A program made the translations under genes and the position numbers. This document shows, one piece after another, positions 20,238-27,730 of a stretch of DNA of 64,000 bases (its first letter is position 1; each line of letters begins with the position of its first letter). The notes under the pieces were generated by a model. The model saw only the letters and a program-made list of their open reading frames with translations. It did not search any database and had not been told where the DNA came from. Origin of the DNA: Streptacidiphilus jiangxiensis (GTDB lineage Bacteria > Actinomycetota > Actinomycetes > Streptomycetales > Streptomycetaceae); the NCBI RefSeq assembly GCF_900109465.1, contig NZ_FOAZ01000018.1, forward strand, positions 1-64,000, read 5' to 3'.

Positions 20238-20819
20238 ATGCCCCGCATGCCGCACAGGATCCCCACGCTCGCCGCGTCCCTCGCTCTGGCCTGCGCGCCG
20301 CTGCTCGCCCTCGCCCCGACCGCCCTCGCGGCGCCCGCCGGCAACGCCGAACCCGCGAACGGCGTCAACGGCGCGGACATCTCCATCAGCCCCGAGAACG
20401 TCACCCCGGGCCGCACCGTCGGCCTCGTCGTCAACTGCAGCGCCTCGTTCTTCGGCACCCCCGACCCGACCCTGGTCTCCTCCATGGCGTTCGTGACGGC
20501 CGTCCGGGTCCACCCGATGCCCGGCCAGCCCGGCTTCTTCTCCGGAGCCGCCACGATCAGCCAGGACGTCAAGCCGGGCTCCTACAGCGTCTCCGGCGCC
20601 TGCAAGGAGTCCAACACCTCGCTGTCCACCTTCCGCGGCGAGGTCGAGGTCCACGGCCGCCACGACGACGACCACCACCGCCCGCACGGACCGGTCCACA
20701 CCGGTGTCGGCGGCAGCATCGACCCGGGCAGCACCACGCAGGTCGCCGTCGGCCTCGGCCTCGCCGGGCTCGCGGGCGGCGCCCTGTTCCTGAGCCGCCG
20801 CCGCAGCGGCACGAACTGA
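20238..20819 (+). CDS. Secreted surface protein with C-terminal anchor
   Basis: The product is 193 residues with GGAGGTG upstream. A signal peptide (about 1-33, ending LALAPTALA-AP) is followed by a roughly 110-residue beta-rich domain with two Cys (NCSASF and GACKES), a His/Asp-rich stretch (HGRHDDDHHRPHG), and a C-terminal helix ending SRRRSGTN. That tail looks like a sortase sorting signal, hydrophobic helix plus basic end, but no LPxTG precedes it; the nearest candidate is DPGSTT. The next gene, 22 bases on, is a class F sortase, so the two are probably enzyme and substrate. Confidence 0.8.
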   Translation: MPRMPHRIPTLAASLALACAPLLALAPTALAAPAGNAEPANGVNGADISISPENVTPGRTVGLVVNCSASFFGTPDPTLVSSMAFVTAVRVHPMPGQPGFFSGAATISQDVKPGSYSVSGACKESNTSLSTFRGEVEVHGRHDDDHHRPHGPVHTGVGGSIDPGSTTQVAVGLGLAGLAGGALFLSRRRSGTN

Positions 20820-20841
20820 GGCACCCCCGGAGGGACGACGG

Positions 20842-21468
20842 ATGCTCGGCAGCAGGCGGCTGGTCGCGCGGGTGGTGCTGGTCCTCGGTCTGGTCATCGC
20901 CGGCCGAGGGCTCGGCGGCGGCCCGCCGCAGCCCGACGCGAGCGCTGCCGACAACGGAGGCGGCGTCTACTGGTACGCGGATCAGGACCGTCCCGCTCCC
21001 CCGCTGCCGGCCGCGACGCCGTTGCGTGTCCGTATCCCCGTCATCGGCGTCGACGCGCCGCTGACCGCCCTCTCGCTGGATCGCGCCGGGCGGCTGGTCC
21101 CACCGCCGGAGAGCCGGAAGAACCTGGCCGGCTGGTACGCGGACGGAACCGCCCCCGGCAGCGCCGGGCCCGCGATCATCGCGGGTCATGTCGACAACGC
21201 CCACGGTCCCACCGTCTTCTACGCCCTCGGCTCCCTCTCCCGGGGCGACACCGTGGACGTGGTCCGCGCGGACCGGCGCACCGCGGTGTTCCTGGTCGAC
21301 CAGGTCCGGGTCTTCGCCAAGGACCACTTCCCGGACGACCAGGTGTACGGCCCCACCCCACTGGCCGTACTGCGGCTGATCACCTGCGGCGGCGGCTACC
21401 GGGCCGGGCAGGGCTACCTCGGCAACGTGGTGGTCTTCGCCCACCTGGTCAACCGGCCGCCGGACTGA
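20842..21468 (+). CDS. Class F sortase
   Basis: The product is 208 residues; GGAGGG lies upstream. An N-terminal membrane helix (about 8-25) is followed by the sortase barrel. The catalytic His is in IIAGHVDN, the Cys in LRLITCGGGYR, and the downstream VFAHL block is as in class F enzymes, which dominate in actinomycetes. It would act on the outer face, cutting a sorting signal and attaching the protein to the wall or another acceptor. The preceding gene encodes the likely substrate. Confidence 0.92.
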   Translation: MLGSRRLVARVVLVLGLVIAGRGLGGGPPQPDASAADNGGGVYWYADQDRPAPPLPAATPLRVRIPVIGVDAPLTALSLDRAGRLVPPPESRKNLAGWYADGTAPGSAGPAIIAGHVDNAHGPTVFYALGSLSRGDTVDVVRADRRTAVFLVDQVRVFAKDHFPDDQVYGPTPLAVLRLITCGGGYRAGQGYLGNVVVFAHLVNRPPD

Positions 21469-21479
21469 GGCCCCTCACC

Positions 21480-22811
21480 TCACCCGTCCCCGGCGGTGAT
21501 CCAGGCGCGGGCCGGGCCGAAGTCGAGGCTCATCGCCCGGACCCCGAGCCGCTGGCCGGGATGGACGGCCTTCAGCGTCTCCCCGTCCGGGGCCACCCGC
21601 CACGCGCGTCCGCCGACGTTGCGCAGCACCACCTGCCCCGGCCGGCCCGGATGTGCCTCGACACGGCCCAGCACGACGGGAGCGCCACGTCCGCCCGTCA
21701 GATGGTGGTCCGTCAGCTCGGCCCCCTCCCCGAGAACCAGCTCCCGGCCGTTGGGCAGGTGCAGCAACGGCGGTACGGGCAGCGGGAGTCGGCAGGCCCA
21801 GCAGGGGCTGCCGCGGCGGTCCGGATCGTGGAAGACCTCCGCCCCGCACCGCGGACAGGACCAGACGCTGTCGTGCAGCCGCAGCAGCACCCGCCGCCAC
21901 ACCCCCTCGGTGACCCGCCCGCCCAGAGTCGCGTCGCGCAGGCCCACGGTGAACGCGCGGGTGAAGACCTGCCGCACGAACTCCGGGTAGAGCTCCCACC
22001 ACACCAGCATCCGGTCCCCCGGCACGGGACGGTTCGCCGCGTCGGTCGGGTCGAAGACGAAGAGCGGGTCCCGGCCGAAGTGCTCCAGCAGCAGCTCCAG
22101 TTCGGTGAGGTGCCCGCCACCCTCCCAGGTGTAGGAGGAGTCGACCCGCGCCCCCAGCAGCGGATGCCCGTGCACCAGCACGAAGAAGAGCAGCACGGCG
22201 AGGGAGTGCAGGTCCGTCACCGTCGACGGCAGCGCCTCGTCCCGCAGGATCTCCGGAGCCATGAACCGGCCGGTCCCCTTGACGAAGACCTCGCCGCCCT
22301 CGCTGCCGATGTTGTCGTTGTCCAGCACCGCGATCTGCGCGGTCGCCGGGTCGACCCAGACGTTGCCGAAGCTGAAGTCCCGGTAGCACAGCCCGGTCGC
22401 GTGCAGCGCCGCCATGGCCTCCACCAACTCGCGCCCGATCGTCGCGAGCACGCGGAAGGAGGGTTGCTGGCGCTCGTTCAACACCTGTGGGATCGGCACG
22501 AACCGGGGCTCGACCAACCGCATCAGGTACCCGAACCCCTCCGGTCCGGCGTCGAGCGGCTCGACCAGGTCGATCGGCCACACGAACGCCTCGTGCGGGG
22601 GTCGGCCGCGCCGCACCAGCGCCTCGATGCAGGCCCGGAACCCCTCCTGGCGCAGGTTCGGCCGGAACCACTTGACCGCGAACGAGGCCTCCCCCAACTG
22701 CACGACGTGGACGACGCCCTGTCCGCCCGCCCCGATCCGGCGGCCCACTGTCACGATGGCACCACTGCCGAGGAGCCGCATGCGCTGCCCCGGCACGATC
22801 AGGGTGTCCAT
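21480..22811 (-). CDS. Ser/Thr protein kinase with zinc ribbon, TerY-P type
   Basis: The product is 443 residues; ATG 22811 overlaps the end of the phosphatase gene by 13 bases, indicating coupled translation. The kinase domain spans about 20-310: glycine loop GAGGQGVV (27-34), Lys47 in FAVKWF, YRDFSFGN in place of HRD (Asp145, Asn150), LDNDN in place of DFG (Asp164) and MAPEI (184-188). A zinc ribbon follows (CPRC 319-322, CWAC 337-340), then a beta-rich tail resembling a forkhead-associated fold. The YRD/DND variants and the ribbon are known for kinases encoded with PP2C and vWA partners. Probably active, soluble and part of the five-gene system. Confidence 0.88.
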   Translation of the reverse strand: MDTLIVPGQRMRLLGSGAIVTVGRRIGAGGQGVVHVVQLGEASFAVKWFRPNLRQEGFRACIEALVRRGRPPHEAFVWPIDLVEPLDAGPEGFGYLMRLVEPRFVPIPQVLNERQQPSFRVLATIGRELVEAMAALHATGLCYRDFSFGNVWVDPATAQIAVLDNDNIGSEGGEVFVKGTGRFMAPEILRDEALPSTVTDLHSLAVLLFFVLVHGHPLLGARVDSSYTWEGGGHLTELELLLEHFGRDPLFVFDPTDAANRPVPGDRMLVWWELYPEFVRQVFTRAFTVGLRDATLGGRVTEGVWRRVLLRLHDSVWSCPRCGAEVFHDPDRRGSPCWACRLPLPVPPLLHLPNGRELVLGEGAELTDHHLTGGRGAPVVLGRVEAHPGRPGQVVLRNVGGRAWRVAPDGETLKAVHPGQRLGVRAMSLDFGPARAWITAGDG

Positions 22812-23614
22812 GGGGCCGCTCCTTCCGACGAGCGCAGCAGCAGCGCGATCGAGGTGTCGTCGCCGCTGCCCGCGCCGGACGCGCAGGCCCGCGCCCAGAG
22901 CGGCAGTTGCGCGGCGAACCACTCCGTGCCGTGCTCGGCGGCCAGTTGGGCCAGATCCGCGCCCACCTCGGGCTGCCAGTCGTCCTCGCTCTGCGCGTTG
23001 CCGTACCCGTCGGTCGCCAGCAGCACCAGCGCGACGTCCTCACGCCGCAGGTCCACGACCGCGAGCCGGACCGACGCCGCCGCGTCGGCCTGGCACAGGC
23101 TCGTGGTCCGCCGCCCGTCCAGCGCGGCGTCCGGCGGCACCGGCGCGAAGGAGTTCCCGTCCGGCCGGACCACCAGCAGGTCCCCGTCCCCGATCTGCAG
23201 GCACAGCAGCCACGGCGGGCAGGCTGCCGTCATCACCAGCGTGCTGCCGTACGGGATCAGGGGTTCCTCCACGGTTTCCTGGTAGGGCAGTTGGGCGAGA
23301 TGCCCCATCACGGCGGCCCGCCAGTGCTCGATCAGCAGCGGCACGAAGGCCTGCCGCACCGCGCGCTGCGGCCGTTCCACGTCCGCGCCGAGGAGCGCGG
23401 GCAGCCGCCGCAGGCCCTGCGAGCAGGCGGCGTCCACGGCGAGCACCGCGCCGATCTCGCTGCGGAAGTGCTGGGCGTGCCCGTGCCCGTCGGCGACGGC
23501 CACCACCGTGCAGTCCGCGCTCCGCGCGGCCCGCACCGCGTCCTGCGCCGCACGCCCCCGCGCCGCATGCGCAGCACCCCGCGCCACGGCGGTGACGGCC
23601 TGCCACTGGTGCAC
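22799..23614 (-). CDS. PP2C-family protein phosphatase
   Basis: The product is 271 residues from GTG 23614, with GGAGG directly upstream. All metal motifs are visible: VADGHGH (Asp42), GSTLVMTA (123-130), IGDGD (141-145), TDGYG (201-205) and GDDTSIALL (251-259). It would reverse phosphorylation by the adjacent kinase. The ribosome site touches the left arm of the dispersed repeat at 23627, so this element sits inside the operon between vWA and phosphatase genes. Confidence 0.9.
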   Translation of the reverse strand: MHQWQAVTAVARGAAHAARGRAAQDAVRAARSADCTVVAVADGHGHAQHFRSEIGAVLAVDAACSQGLRRLPALLGADVERPQRAVRQAFVPLLIEHWRAAVMGHLAQLPYQETVEEPLIPYGSTLVMTAACPPWLLCLQIGDGDLLVVRPDGNSFAPVPPDAALDGRRTTSLCQADAAASVRLAVVDLRREDVALVLLATDGYGNAQSEDDWQPEVGADLAQLAAEHGTEWFAAQLPLWARACASGAGSGDDTSIALLLRSSEGAAPWTP

Positions 23615-23626
23615 AACGCCTCCCCC

Positions 23627-23748
23627 CTCAGGGACGCGAGGAACTGCGCGAGGAACCGCCCGGAGCGGATGGCCCTGTTCGAGGAGGACCGTCCGCACGC
23701 CGGTGGCTTGTCGCGCAGCTCCTCGCGTCCCCGAGGTAGTGCAGCTGA
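23627..23748. repeat. Dispersed inverted-repeat element, copy 3
   Basis: The left arm 23627-23651 and the right arm 23711-23735 match at 23 of 25 positions around a 59-base loop. The right flank, read on the minus strand, continues as CAGCTGCACTACCTC, related to the TAGTTGCACT end of the other copies. It separates the vWA stop (23750) from the phosphatase start and may tune expression within the operon. Confidence 0.75.
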
Positions 23749-23749
23749 G

Positions 23750-24472
23750 TCAAATGATCGTGTCCTGACCGAAGATGGAGTCCCCCGGGCCGCCGTGGCC
23801 GAAGAGCCGGTCCGCCAGCGCGGCGCGATCCGCGCCCGCTTCGGACATGCGGGAGACCGCGAGCGAGGCGACGACCAGCCGGTCGGAGATGTCGGAGGTG
23901 CTGTCCGCCACCAGGACCGGCACCGAGGGGTCGCCGATGAAGCGGTTCAACGCCTCCGAGCGGGCGTCCCGGCCGATCGCCACGGAGAGCCGCAGCGCGC
24001 CCCGACCGGCCGGCGTGGCCAGCAGGGCGTTGAGGCCGGCCTCGAAGCGGCCGGGTGGGTCGGTGGCGAGGCCGTCGGTGATCAGCAGCAACGCCGGGCG
24101 CAGGGCGCGGCGTTCGATCCTGCCGGGGGCCAGCGCCTCCGCGACCAACTGGAACGCGGTGCCCATGTTGGTCAGCCCGCGCGGGACGGGCTGCAGCGGG
24201 CGCCAGCGCAGGTCGACGACGGGGGTGGGAGCGGGGATGTGCCAGACCGCCTCCGTCGCGAACGCGACGGCTCGGACGAACACCTGGGCCTGCTCCTGGG
24301 CGCGGTCCCAGATGGCCAGCTGGGCCAGCATGTCGGCGATGGCGTAGTTGAGGGCCTGGATCTTCTCGCCCTTCATACCGCCGGAGCAGTCGGCGAGGAG
24401 GATCAGGTGGAGCGGGCGGCGGGAGATCCCGCCGCCCGGCATCCGCAGGGTCGGGGTGTCGTGGGCCGTCAT
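23750..24472 (-). CDS. vWA-domain protein, TerY type
   Basis: The product is 240 residues, nearly all one von Willebrand A domain. The metal site is LLADCSGGM (Asp28, Ser30, Gly32 in place of the third Ser), Thr101 in LTNMG and Asp133 in LITDG. TerY-like proteins are encoded with a PP2C phosphatase and a zinc-ribbon kinase, as here, and are thought to act as scaffolds or regulated binding partners. No membrane segment is present. The gene is 22 bases behind the membrane-protein gene at 24495 and 135 bases ahead of the phosphatase gene. Confidence 0.88.
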   Translation of the reverse strand: MTAHDTPTLRMPGGGISRRPLHLILLADCSGGMKGEKIQALNYAIADMLAQLAIWDRAQEQAQVFVRAVAFATEAVWHIPAPTPVVDLRWRPLQPVPRGLTNMGTAFQLVAEALAPGRIERRALRPALLLITDGLATDPPGRFEAGLNALLATPAGRGALRLSVAIGRDARSEALNRFIGDPSVPVLVADSTSDISDRLVVASLAVSRMSEAGADRAALADRLFGHGGPGDSIFGQDTII

Positions 24473-24494
24473 GGCTCTCGTTCGCCTCCGCCGC

Positions 24495-26084
24495 TCAGGA
24501 GGAGCTCGGCGAGGCGGCCGTGGTCGACTGCGGCGGGGCGTACTTGCCCCACCAGTTGTTCAGGGAGGACCAACTGCTGCCCTTGTCGCCCTCCGCCACG
24601 AAGAAGGTGTCCTGTGTCGGCAGCGACCAGGTGTAGGAGGGCGTGTTGTCGGAGCCACCGCTGCCGACCATCTGGCACTCCAGGACCTGCCCGGAGCGGT
24701 CCGGGTAGCCGGCCGCGTCGTCGTGCCAGCCGCTCAGGCCGCCGGAGGAACCGCTGCCGGGCGGGCAGGTGCTGCCGGCGGAGGAGGTGCTGAAGCCCCA
24801 CCACTTGTTGTAGTTGACCCAGGTGGCCTGGTAGTCGGCCTGGGAGTCCAGTTGGTAGGCCCAGATGCCGCCCCCGGGCAGATTGGTGTCGGTGCAGTAG
24901 TACGCCGACACCAGGCCGACCGAGGTGAACTTGTCCTGGCCGGGGTCGTGCGACTGGCACTGGGTCGCGGGGTCGGGAAGGGCGGTGGACAGGATGTCCA
25001 TCAGCGGCGTCACGCCGTCCGCGACCACCGGGCCGGTCGGCGAGGGGCTGGGCGTCGGGGTGGTCGGTTCGGGGGACGGCGTGGTGGGCGTGGGACTCGG
25101 CGAGTGCGTGGGATGGGCGGCGGCGGCCTGGAACGGCGGCATGTGGGCGGCGCCGGCCACCGCCAGGTAGCCGACGAGCAGCACCGCGACGGCCCCGGCG
25201 GCGACGATCAGAGCCGTCGGACGCTTGCTCGGGCCGCTGGTGCCCGACGCGTACCCGGCGGGCGGCACGGCGCCGGGCCCGCCCGGTCCGGTGGGGCCGC
25301 CGTACCCGCCGTAGGCTCCCCCGCCGGGAGCGGCGCCGCCGGGCGGACCGAAGCCCTGCGGCGGGACGCCCGCTCCGCCGGGAAGCGATGATCCGGGCAG
25401 CGACGAACCCGGCAGCGACGAACCGAAGCCTGGCGTGGGCGCGCCGTAGCCCACCGGCCCGGGCGGCGTCGGCGGCAGCGAGGAGCCGGCCGGCGGGAGC
25501 GAACCGCCCGGCGGCAGCGAGCCCGATCCTGGCGGGGCGATCAGCGTCGGCGCGTCCGGCATCGACGGCCCCGGCGGCTGCGGTGGCCCGACCGGCTGGG
25601 GTGGCCCGACCGGCTGCGGCAGGGAGGACATCGGCTGGGTCGGCACGTAGGGCGTCGGGTCACCCCCGGGCGCCGCGCCCTGTGCCGACGCACCCGGCAC
25701 GGCGTCCGCCGGTGGCGCGTCGGTGGGCGGCGGAGCCGAGACCGTCGGCGGGTTGTAGCCGAGCGCGGTCGCGTAGGCGGTGGTGACCCAGCGGGCCGCC
25801 GCCGGGTCCAGGGCGCGGCGTTCGATCAGGGTGCGCGAGGTCAGCGCCACCGCCGTGCCCGGGTCCAGCCGCTGTCTCCCGACCTGTTCCTGCAGCAGGG
25901 TCGCGGCCTCCGCCTCGGCCGCGGCCACCAGCAGGCTGCGTTCGCGCGGATGGTCCGGCAACAGGTCGGTCAGGATGTTGCCGAGCATCTGCGCGTTGCC
26001 GAGCACGGCCGGCCCGTACGATCCGACGGCCGCCGCGAGCGCCTCGCGCACCTCGTCGTCCCGTCCGTTCGGAGTCTGGTTCAT
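24495..26084 (-). CDS. Single-pass membrane protein with helical cytoplasmic domain and Cys-containing outer domain
   Basis: The product is 529 residues. Residues 1-110 form an alpha-helical domain (AAVGSYGPAVLGN, AARWVTTAYATALGY) that resembles small helical modules found at the N-termini of many actinobacterial signalling proteins. Residues 112-288 are a Pro/Gly/Ser linker with GSSLP repeats. One membrane helix lies at 288-311, then a Ser/Thr/Pro stalk and an outer domain of about 170 residues with four Cys (376, 397, 440, 470), likely two disulfides, and many Trp/Tyr. I do not recognise the outer domain. Position between the FHA-protease and vWA genes suggests a sensor or adaptor for the kinase system. 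Confidence 0.8.
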   Translation of the reverse strand: MNQTPNGRDDEVREALAAAVGSYGPAVLGNAQMLGNILTDLLPDHPRERSLLVAAAEAEAATLLQEQVGRQRLDPGTAVALTSRTLIERRALDPAAARWVTTAYATALGYNPPTVSAPPPTDAPPADAVPGASAQGAAPGGDPTPYVPTQPMSSLPQPVGPPQPVGPPQPPGPSMPDAPTLIAPPGSGSLPPGGSLPPAGSSLPPTPPGPVGYGAPTPGFGSSLPGSSLPGSSLPGGAGVPPQGFGPPGGAAPGGGAYGGYGGPTGPGGPGAVPPAGYASGTSGPSKRPTALIVAAGAVAVLLVGYLAVAGAAHMPPFQAAAAHPTHSPSPTPTTPSPEPTTPTPSPSPTGPVVADGVTPLMDILSTALPDPATQCQSHDPGQDKFTSVGLVSAYYCTDTNLPGGGIWAYQLDSQADYQATWVNYNKWWGFSTSSAGSTCPPGSGSSGGLSGWHDDAAGYPDRSGQVLECQMVGSGGSDNTPSYTWSLPTQDTFFVAEGDKGSSWSSLNNWWGKYAPPQSTTAASPSSS

Positions 26085-26122
26085 CGCCCTCTTCCCTTCT
26101 CCTCACGCTGCCTCACGGTGCG

Positions 26123-27730
26123 TCACCCCCCGACGCGGAACTGGGCGGTACCGCCGACCGGATCGAGATCCGGTCCGGCGAAGAGCTGTGCCTGGTACGT
26201 CCCCGGTGGCAGGGACGCGAGGCCGAAGGAGGCGGGGTCGACCGCCACGGCGAGACAGCCGTCCGGCCCCGGCACCGTCTCCTCCGGCAGCGCGCCGCCC
26301 GCTCCCCCGAAGGCGGCGGCGCCCGGCGGGCGGACCCCGACGGCGACGTCCAGCCCCTTGGGCAGGCCCGCGTAGCGCAGACCCACCCACAGCTGGGCCG
26401 GCAGCGCCGCGAGGGTCGCGGGCGCGGAGATGGCGCAGGCCTGCTCGCCCGACCCGCCGACGCCCACGCCGGTGACCTTTTCCCCGACGCCCGAGTGCAC
26501 CAGCAGCACCGAGCCGTACGTCCGGCCGGCCCGGGCCGCCGCCAGCAGCGGGCGGGCCAGTTGGGCGGCCCTCAGCCGGTAGGACACGTCCGCGCCCTCG
26601 CCGGTGACCTCCATGCTGGGCACGCCGATCAGCCGTCCGCCCGCGTCGATCGCGGCGCCACCGGAGTTGCCGTGGGCGAGCCGCGCCGTGGTCTCCAACT
26701 CGAAGCGCGGGTCCGCGGCATGGTGCAGCGGATCGGGCACGAAGGTGGACAGCACACCGCTGGTGACGCTGATCGAGTCGGACTCGGCGACCCCGGGGAA
26801 GCCCAGCACGGTGACGGGCTGGCCGAGTTGCAGCGCACCCGAGTCGCCGATCGTGAGCGCGGGCAGCCTCAGCGTGCTCGGGTCGACCGGCTTCCCGGCG
26901 GCGTCGGCGTAGATCTGCACGACGGCCAGGTCCAGGTAGCCGTCCACGGCGACCGGGCGGGCCCGGTAGCGGGCGACGGCCGGGGTGGACTGACCGGTGG
27001 TCATCTCGACGGTCAGGAAGGGCGGGTTGGCGGGCAGCTGGTAGCCGGGCGTGCCCAGGGCCACGGCCTGTCCCGGCGCCTGCGGCTGCGCGACGTGCGC
27101 GTTGGTGAGGATCAGCCCGTGCGGGTCGACGACCGTCCCCGAGCCCCACCCGGTGGAGGCATCCGCCGGACCGAGGCGCAACCGGACCGTGGCCGCCTCG
27201 GCCAGGGCGAGCGGCGCGGTGGTCGCCGTCGCGCCGGCGCTCGGGTGCGCGGCCGCCTTGGGTGTGGCGCCCGAGGGCAGCAGCAGTGCGGCGAGGACGG
27301 CCGCGGCGACGCCCATCGCGCCCAGTGCGAGACCGGCCATGCGTCCGCGCCGCAGCGCCAGCCGTCTGCGGCGGTTCCGTTCCAGCTGGTGCGAGCCGAG
27401 CGGTGGCGTGACGCCGAGGACCTCGCCGGTCACCGGATCGCCGAGGCGCAGCTCCACCGACTCGGTGATCCGCAGCGGTCCGCGCAGCGGTCTGCCGCGC
27501 AGGAACGTGCCGCGTCGCGACTGGTCCACGTAGGTGGCGCCGCCCGCGTCGACACTGATGACCGCGTGGCAGGCACGCGAGACCAGCGGGCTGGTCGACA
27601 CCACGTCCAGCTCGGGATTGCGCCCGATCCGGACGACGCTGCCGACCGGAAAAAGGTACTGGCGATCCGCCAGCACGACGATCAGAGGTGGTCCCCCCAC
27701 CCCACTGGCATCCGATGTGGTCCCCGCCAT
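26123..27730 (-). CDS. FHA domain-transmembrane-trypsin-like serine protease
   Basis: The product is 535 residues with GGGGGTG before ATG 27730. An FHA phosphothreonine-binding domain covers about 15-100 (RIGRNPELD at 34-42, SRACH, then a GTFLRG end). A basic stretch and one membrane helix follow (131-151). The protease domain has GSGTVV, then TNAHV (His212), LDLAVVQI (Asp267) and GNSGGAAI (Ser357): a complete triad. About 130 C-terminal residues form an extra beta domain. Topology should place FHA inside and protease outside, so phosphorylation inside could be linked to proteolysis outside. It is the first gene of the five-gene operon, whose kinase is the natural source of phospho-ligand. 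Confidence 0.88.
   Translation of the reverse strand: MAGTTSDASGVGGPPLIVVLADRQYLFPVGSVVRIGRNPELDVVSTSPLVSRACHAVISVDAGGATYVDQSRRGTFLRGRPLRGPLRITESVELRLGDPVTGEVLGVTPPLGSHQLERNRRRRLALRRGRMAGLALGAMGVAAAVLAALLLPSGATPKAAAHPSAGATATTAPLALAEAATVRLRLGPADASTGWGSGTVVDPHGLILTNAHVAQPQAPGQAVALGTPGYQLPANPPFLTVEMTTGQSTPAVARYRARPVAVDGYLDLAVVQIYADAAGKPVDPSTLRLPALTIGDSGALQLGQPVTVLGFPGVAESDSISVTSGVLSTFVPDPLHHAADPRFELETTARLAHGNSGGAAIDAGGRLIGVPSMEVTGEGADVSYRLRAAQLARPLLAAARAGRTYGSVLLVHSGVGEKVTGVGVGGSGEQACAISAPATLAALPAQLWVGLRYAGLPKGLDVAVGVRPPGAAAFGGAGGALPEETVPGPDGCLAVAVDPASFGLASLPPGTYQAQLFAGPDLDPVGGTAQFRVGG

Follow-up and report, generated by a model that had tools for sequence, protein, structure and literature searches.

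Organization of the Operon

The window, which comprises the 64,000 bases at positions 1-64,000 of contig NZ_FOAZ01000018.1 from Streptacidiphilus jiangxiensis, contains a reverse-strand operon of five genes: g1, g2, and the genes for a vWA protein, a PP2C phosphatase, and a Ser/Thr kinase (Table 1). The coordinates and spacing given in the original prediction were confirmed; from g1 to the kinase gene, the gaps are 38, 22, and 135 bases, followed by a 13-base overlap between the PP2C and kinase genes. The vWA-PP2C gap is 51 bases if the alternative PP2C start is used, and in relatives it ranges from -4 to 15 bases. A pullulanase gene lies upstream and a sortase gene lies downstream on the other strand, and the immediate neighbours also include genes for an S41 peptidase and a dehydrogenase. 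No ter, CoCoNuT, restriction, or DNA-processing genes occur among these neighbours, and the operon itself contains neither a sigma factor gene nor a site-2 protease gene. Scans for sigma-70 promoters and terminators gave no signal above chance. Next to the sortase gene is a gene for a small protein that is probably secreted, has a hydrophobic stretch and a basic tail at its C terminus, and could be a sortase substrate (both genes within window 20238-21468).

Table 1. Genes of the operon and their predicted features (positions in the window; domain limits in residues)
Gene	Coordinates	Strand	Features
g1	26123..27730	-	FHA 33-97; TM 133-151; HtrA-like trypsin domain 196-370; C-terminal region with two Cys
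g2	24495..26084	-	Helical N-domain ~1-113; Pro-rich linker; TM 291-309; four-Cys ectodomain ~348-520
vWA protein, TerY-like	23750..24472	-	Conserved C-terminal tail F-x-Q-D-T-I-I
PP2C phosphatase	22799..23614	-	Metal-binding Asp residues present; alternative start 23698
Ser/Thr kinase	21480..22811	-	YRDxxxxN; DND replacing DFG; zinc ribbon C319-C340

The vWA protein, the phosphatase, and the kinase match the Pfam families VWA (29.5 bits), PP2C_2 (97.8 bits), and Pkinase (39.3 bits), respectively, and alignments indicate that active-site residues are retained in the kinase, the PP2C, and the proteases. The zinc ribbon of the kinase follows a CPxC-x14-CWxC pattern; its cysteines are conserved, and it has no Pfam match above the cut-off. 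Beyond the ribbon, the C-terminal region of the kinase looks β-rich.

The g1 protein contains an FHA domain (PF00498, 34.7 bits) and a trypsin-like domain (Trypsin_2, PF13365, 86.3 bits) on either side of a single TM segment, which is preceded by basic residues. The catalytic residues His212, Asp267, and Ser356 are unchanged across four homologues, and the earlier description of g1 as an FHA domain and a complete His/Asp/Ser protease separated by the membrane stands in its domains, triad, and TM segment. No PDZ domain was detected in g1 in the Pfam scan, and g1 scores far under the cut-off of the DegS equivalog model. The FHA domain has the Arg, Ser, and His residues but not the Asn normally found in its N-G-T loop. 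In the Trebonia bin (L009:6562-6930), g1 may have a second, degenerate FHA-like domain ahead of the first.

The g2 protein, for which the whole sequence has no Pfam family match, has a single TM segment with basic residues N-terminal to it. Of its original description as a one-pass protein with a helical inner domain and four outer cysteines, the TM segment and the cysteines were upheld, and the predicted helicity of the N-domain comes from a low-confidence model. The AlphaFold model of full-length g2 (four sequences) has a pLDDT of 40 and was excluded from fold searching. The four cysteines are retained in eight homologues, with one displaced by one residue in L010. Structure prediction of the outer region, as originally suggested, yielded a better model (pLDDT 75, pTM 0.77), for which the fold matches are weak: Foldseek gave no match at E below 0.05, and among the top structural hits are TiME (Z 7.2), the PknH sensor (Z 6.2), and PsbP/Mog1-like proteins. 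Identity to TiME and the PknH ectodomain, both mycobacterial, is 6-8%, and a Z under 8 may reflect merely a common arrangement. Since these scores are in the chance range, a sensor reading of the ectodomain is a lead only.

Distribution and Operon Types

Among 61 genomes of the family, a close kinase homologue (85%) is found in one other genome (G037), which belongs to the same genus and has all five genes in the order of the window; the operon is present in 2 of the 14 genomes of the genus. A vWA scan using one genome per species located two metagenome bins, of a Nocardiopsis sp. and a Trebonia sp. (L008 and L009; 75-76% identity), both with the gene order of the window, the Trebonia contig terminating within the kinase. 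Additional loci came from a search covering 343 genomes of the family to which the Trebonia bin belongs. A plasmid search with the kinase returned two matches, both remote, and no viral contigs carrying g1 were found. The operon is rare but conserved, and its rarity may be overstated because the first-look filters scored few candidates per genome in large samples.

Three layouts are distinguished, of which two are defined as types A and B. Type A, in the order FHA-HtrA, g2, vWA, PP2C, kinase with short gaps, is found in the window, L001, L008, L009/L021, and L010. Type B, in the order g2, vWA, PP2C, kinase, FHA-PrsW, is found in L012 and L015 (PrsW, 62 and 58 bits). The L014 contig begins at the kinase, with the kinase and FHA-PrsW visible (PrsW, 43 bits). 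The EExxK motif of PrsW is present, as are two His motifs. The contigs of L011 and L016 end inside the FHA gene, so their protease is unseen, and L016 has no g2 next to the triad. The third layout is a residual group: in L013, g2 has an NHL propeller as its outer part, and in L017 a multi-TM protein bearing the g2 N-domain sits after the kinase; neither locus has an FHA-protease beside the triad. Comparison of these loci indicates that the FHA domain is constant while the protease is swapped, and that the g2 N-domain is constant while the outer part is swapped (mostly four Cys, with an NHL propeller in L013 and multiple TM segments in L017). Such variability of the outer part is expected of a receptor.

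By sequence comparison, the five genes are conserved as a unit, the order of which is not due to chance since it recurs in L001, L008, L009/L021, and L010; the L001 operon also has flanking genes similar to those of the window. Within this clade, the two membrane genes go together with the triad, as originally proposed. The triad is usually accompanied by a protein that combines FHA with a membrane protease and by a receptor-like protein of the g2 type, in a set of loci that are few, related, and in many cases from metagenome bins and short contigs. In all protease-linked FHA copies of both types, the loop Asn is substituted and the Arg, Ser, and His are retained; without the Asn, phosphothreonine binding may be altered.

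More distant triads lack both membrane genes. These include L002-L007, which are from the same family as the window and have kinases 38-42% identical, and L018-L020. Pfam analysis of three of these loci identified GAP1-N2 domains beside the triads of L003, L006, and L019 and a DO-GTPase2 in L003; the remaining rows were assigned to a GAP1-N2 group from kinase similarity and gene lists. GAP1-N2 and DO-GTPase genes are absent beside the window operon. A kinase tree separates 11 rows of the present system from nine GAP1-N2-type rows by a branch with 100/100 support; L009 was omitted because its kinase is cut. Absence of the membrane genes from most relatives, which the original prediction had named as counting against it, is true of triads at ~40% identity, but these form the separate GAP1-N2/GTPase-linked group.

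The vWA proteins differ in their MIDAS motifs: of the five type A loci, four have DxSGG in place of the expected DxSxS; the MIDAS Ser is retained in type B and in the GAP1-N2 group. An acidic-hydrophobic tail terminates the vWA protein in all triads (window 23750-23790; L001-L020), mostly as D-x-V-W-COOH in the GAP1-N2 group and as D-[ST]-I-[ILV] in types A and B. It is a possible docking element for the kinase or phosphatase. The QDTII tail in the window was considered as an FHA ligand and dropped, because all triads, even those without FHA, share the acidic-hydrophobic tail. A second candidate ligand, the PP2C tail D-E-x-T-I-P-A, is a guess; it occurs in L011, L012, and L015 only and is absent in type A. 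The PP2C proteins of L010 (8948-10411), L016 (9264-10706), and L017 (7201-8850) appear to end in a TM segment followed by an outer tail, which would make the phosphatase membrane-bound in these loci.

The g2 N-domain also recurs in related genomes. Of the 343 genomes in the family of the Trebonia bin, 11 are matched by a profile of this domain; a single genome has as many as 13 matches, and many of the matches are on unlinked genes of the same genomes (L022-L041). It occurs in 8 of the 9 genomes with a type A, type B, or related kinase and in 3 of the 334 others (Fisher p 3e-13, which is overstated by the relatedness of the genomes). Among 396 sampled actinobacterial genomes the domain is almost entirely lacking, with one clear match (G264), and the genome of the window has one copy. 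Fusion partners include RCC1 and WD40 propellers, FHA, FN3, DUF4190, and multi-TM segments; fusion to vWA, PP2C, or kinase was never seen, the domain being on membrane or other partners only. No credible match was obtained for g2 or its N-domain against Pfam and PDB sequences, or for 32 members of the domain family against Pfam, EAD families included. Its presence in multiple copies on varied proteins suggests an undescribed adaptor-like domain.

Possible Coupling of Phosphorylation to Membrane Proteolysis

Cleavage of RseA is initiated by DegS, which is of the HtrA type, and that of RsiW by PrsW; both are site-1 proteases (PMC4183432). Because these are the two classic proteases of this kind, the best account of an FHA fusion to either an HtrA-like or a PrsW protease in this operon is a membrane-linked phospho-switch that would control site-1-like proteolysis, with g2 as a receptor and perhaps a substrate, a reading that we consider plausible if somewhat short of probable. 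The exchange of unrelated proteases joined to the same FHA domain suggests that cytoplasmic phosphorylation controls protein cleavage at the membrane. Envelope sensing would fall to the g2 ectodomain, and the helical domain of g2 in the cytoplasm would hold or signal to the triad. The kinase would then phosphorylate the triad or g2 at a site that the PP2C would reset, and the FHA domain would read the phosphate to position or activate the protease. A single-pass N-in/C-out protein would be cut by the protease, which is HtrA-like and external to the membrane in the window and PrsW-like in sister loci. The best candidate for this substrate is g2, by analogy to the cutting of RseA and RsiW; its topology, with the N-domain inside, one TM segment, and the ectodomain outside, is that of site-1 substrates. 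Points against this model are the missing loop Asn in the FHA domains of both types, the lack of sigma factor and site-2 protease genes in the operon, the small number and relatedness of the loci, the triads of L013 and L017, which have no FHA-protease beside them, and that of L016, which lacks g2. The original interpretation is partly supported: a second lineage, in which FHA is joined to a different membrane protease (PrsW) within the corresponding operon, is what the proposed link from phosphorylation to proteolysis would predict.

A more extended version of this model, which we regard as doubtful, is that FHA licenses interchangeable site-1 proteases to cut the adaptor-bearing receptor, and that the adaptor wires up to a dozen further sensors to the switch in some soil actinobacteria.

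The operon could instead be a defence module in which the switch detects invasion and the membrane protease is an effector that harms the cell or the invader. Its patchy presence in the genus and the classification of triad relatives with conflict and anti-phage systems (PMC7159879, PMC11090510) are in keeping with such a role. PADLOC, however, has no match for the vWA protein or PP2C and matches the kinase and protease weakly, to models of other systems; the pullulanase and sortase flanks, which have similar counterparts in L001, are not defence genes; and the receptor-like g2 and site-1-type proteases better fit envelope signalling. We consider defence unlikely.

No more likely, in our view, is that g1 acts mainly as a housekeeping HtrA-type protease in envelope quality control, tuned by the triad without a signalling cut. 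The protease domain is HtrA-like, and Streptomyces HtrA-like proteases function in secretion stress (PMC5157995). The lack of a detected PDZ domain in g1 argues against this role, as do the FHA fusion and fixed partners, which suggest signalling. Sister loci, moreover, have PrsW as the protease, which is not a known quality-control enzyme. Less likely still is a scaffold, in which FHA and the g2 helical domain merely bring the complex to the membrane and surface proteins of the g2 type are trimmed by a protease that is not under phospho-control: the missing loop Asn and the L013 and L017 triads would fit it, but two different FHA-protease fusions in one operon context and the retained active-site residues of the kinase, PP2C, and proteases would not.

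In bacteria, signalling by Ser/Thr kinases and regulated intramembrane proteolysis are as a rule treated as separate fields, which the operon would bring together. The putative recruitment of two site-1-type proteases via FHA would allow a direct test of whether cytoplasmic phosphorylation licenses a membrane protease, and study of the operon also reveals the adaptor-like N-domain of g2.

Comparison with Described Systems

Similar to the DegS and PrsW systems, the operon encodes a membrane-tethered HtrA-type protease or PrsW and a single-pass N-in/C-out partner. Like DegS, g1 has an N-terminal TM segment followed by an HtrA-like trypsin domain with an intact catalytic triad. The differences are that FHA replaces PDZ control, that the partner g2 has no Pfam anti-sigma match, and that the operon includes a kinase triad. 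Fusions of FHA to PrsW and to trypsin domains have themselves been published before (PMC3482391; PMC2605481), and the accessible portions of these accounts make no link to a vWA-PP2C-kinase operon. The g2 ectodomain is weakly similar in fold to the mycobacterial proteins named above. The g2 N-domain resembles EADs (PMC7159879) in being small, predicted to be helical, present in multiple copies with varied fusions, and co-occurrent with a core system; it differs in being found on binding or sensor domains rather than on enzymes and in having no Pfam EAD match.

The TerY-P triad consists of vWA, PP2C, and a Ser/Thr kinase fused to a zinc ribbon (Anantharaman 2012, per PMC11090510). The window likewise has a TerY-like vWA protein, a PP2C, and a kinase with a C-terminal zinc ribbon in one operon, whereas its kinase has an added C-terminal region and membrane partners are present. 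The original match to TerY-P holds for composition, and the closest counterpart among described triads is the one linked to GAP1-N2. The third GAP1-N2 theme comprises a kinase with a zinc ribbon and a β-rich domain, a PP2C, and a standalone vWA (Kaur et al. 2020, PMC7159879). It shares with the present operon the kinase/PP2C/vWA composition, kinases 38-42% identical, and an actinobacterial distribution, the β-rich region of the present kinase being judged from sequence. Those loci have GAP1-N2 and DO-GTPase genes rather than g1 and g2, and the present clade differs from the described GAP1-N2/GTPase-linked triads in having the two membrane genes instead.
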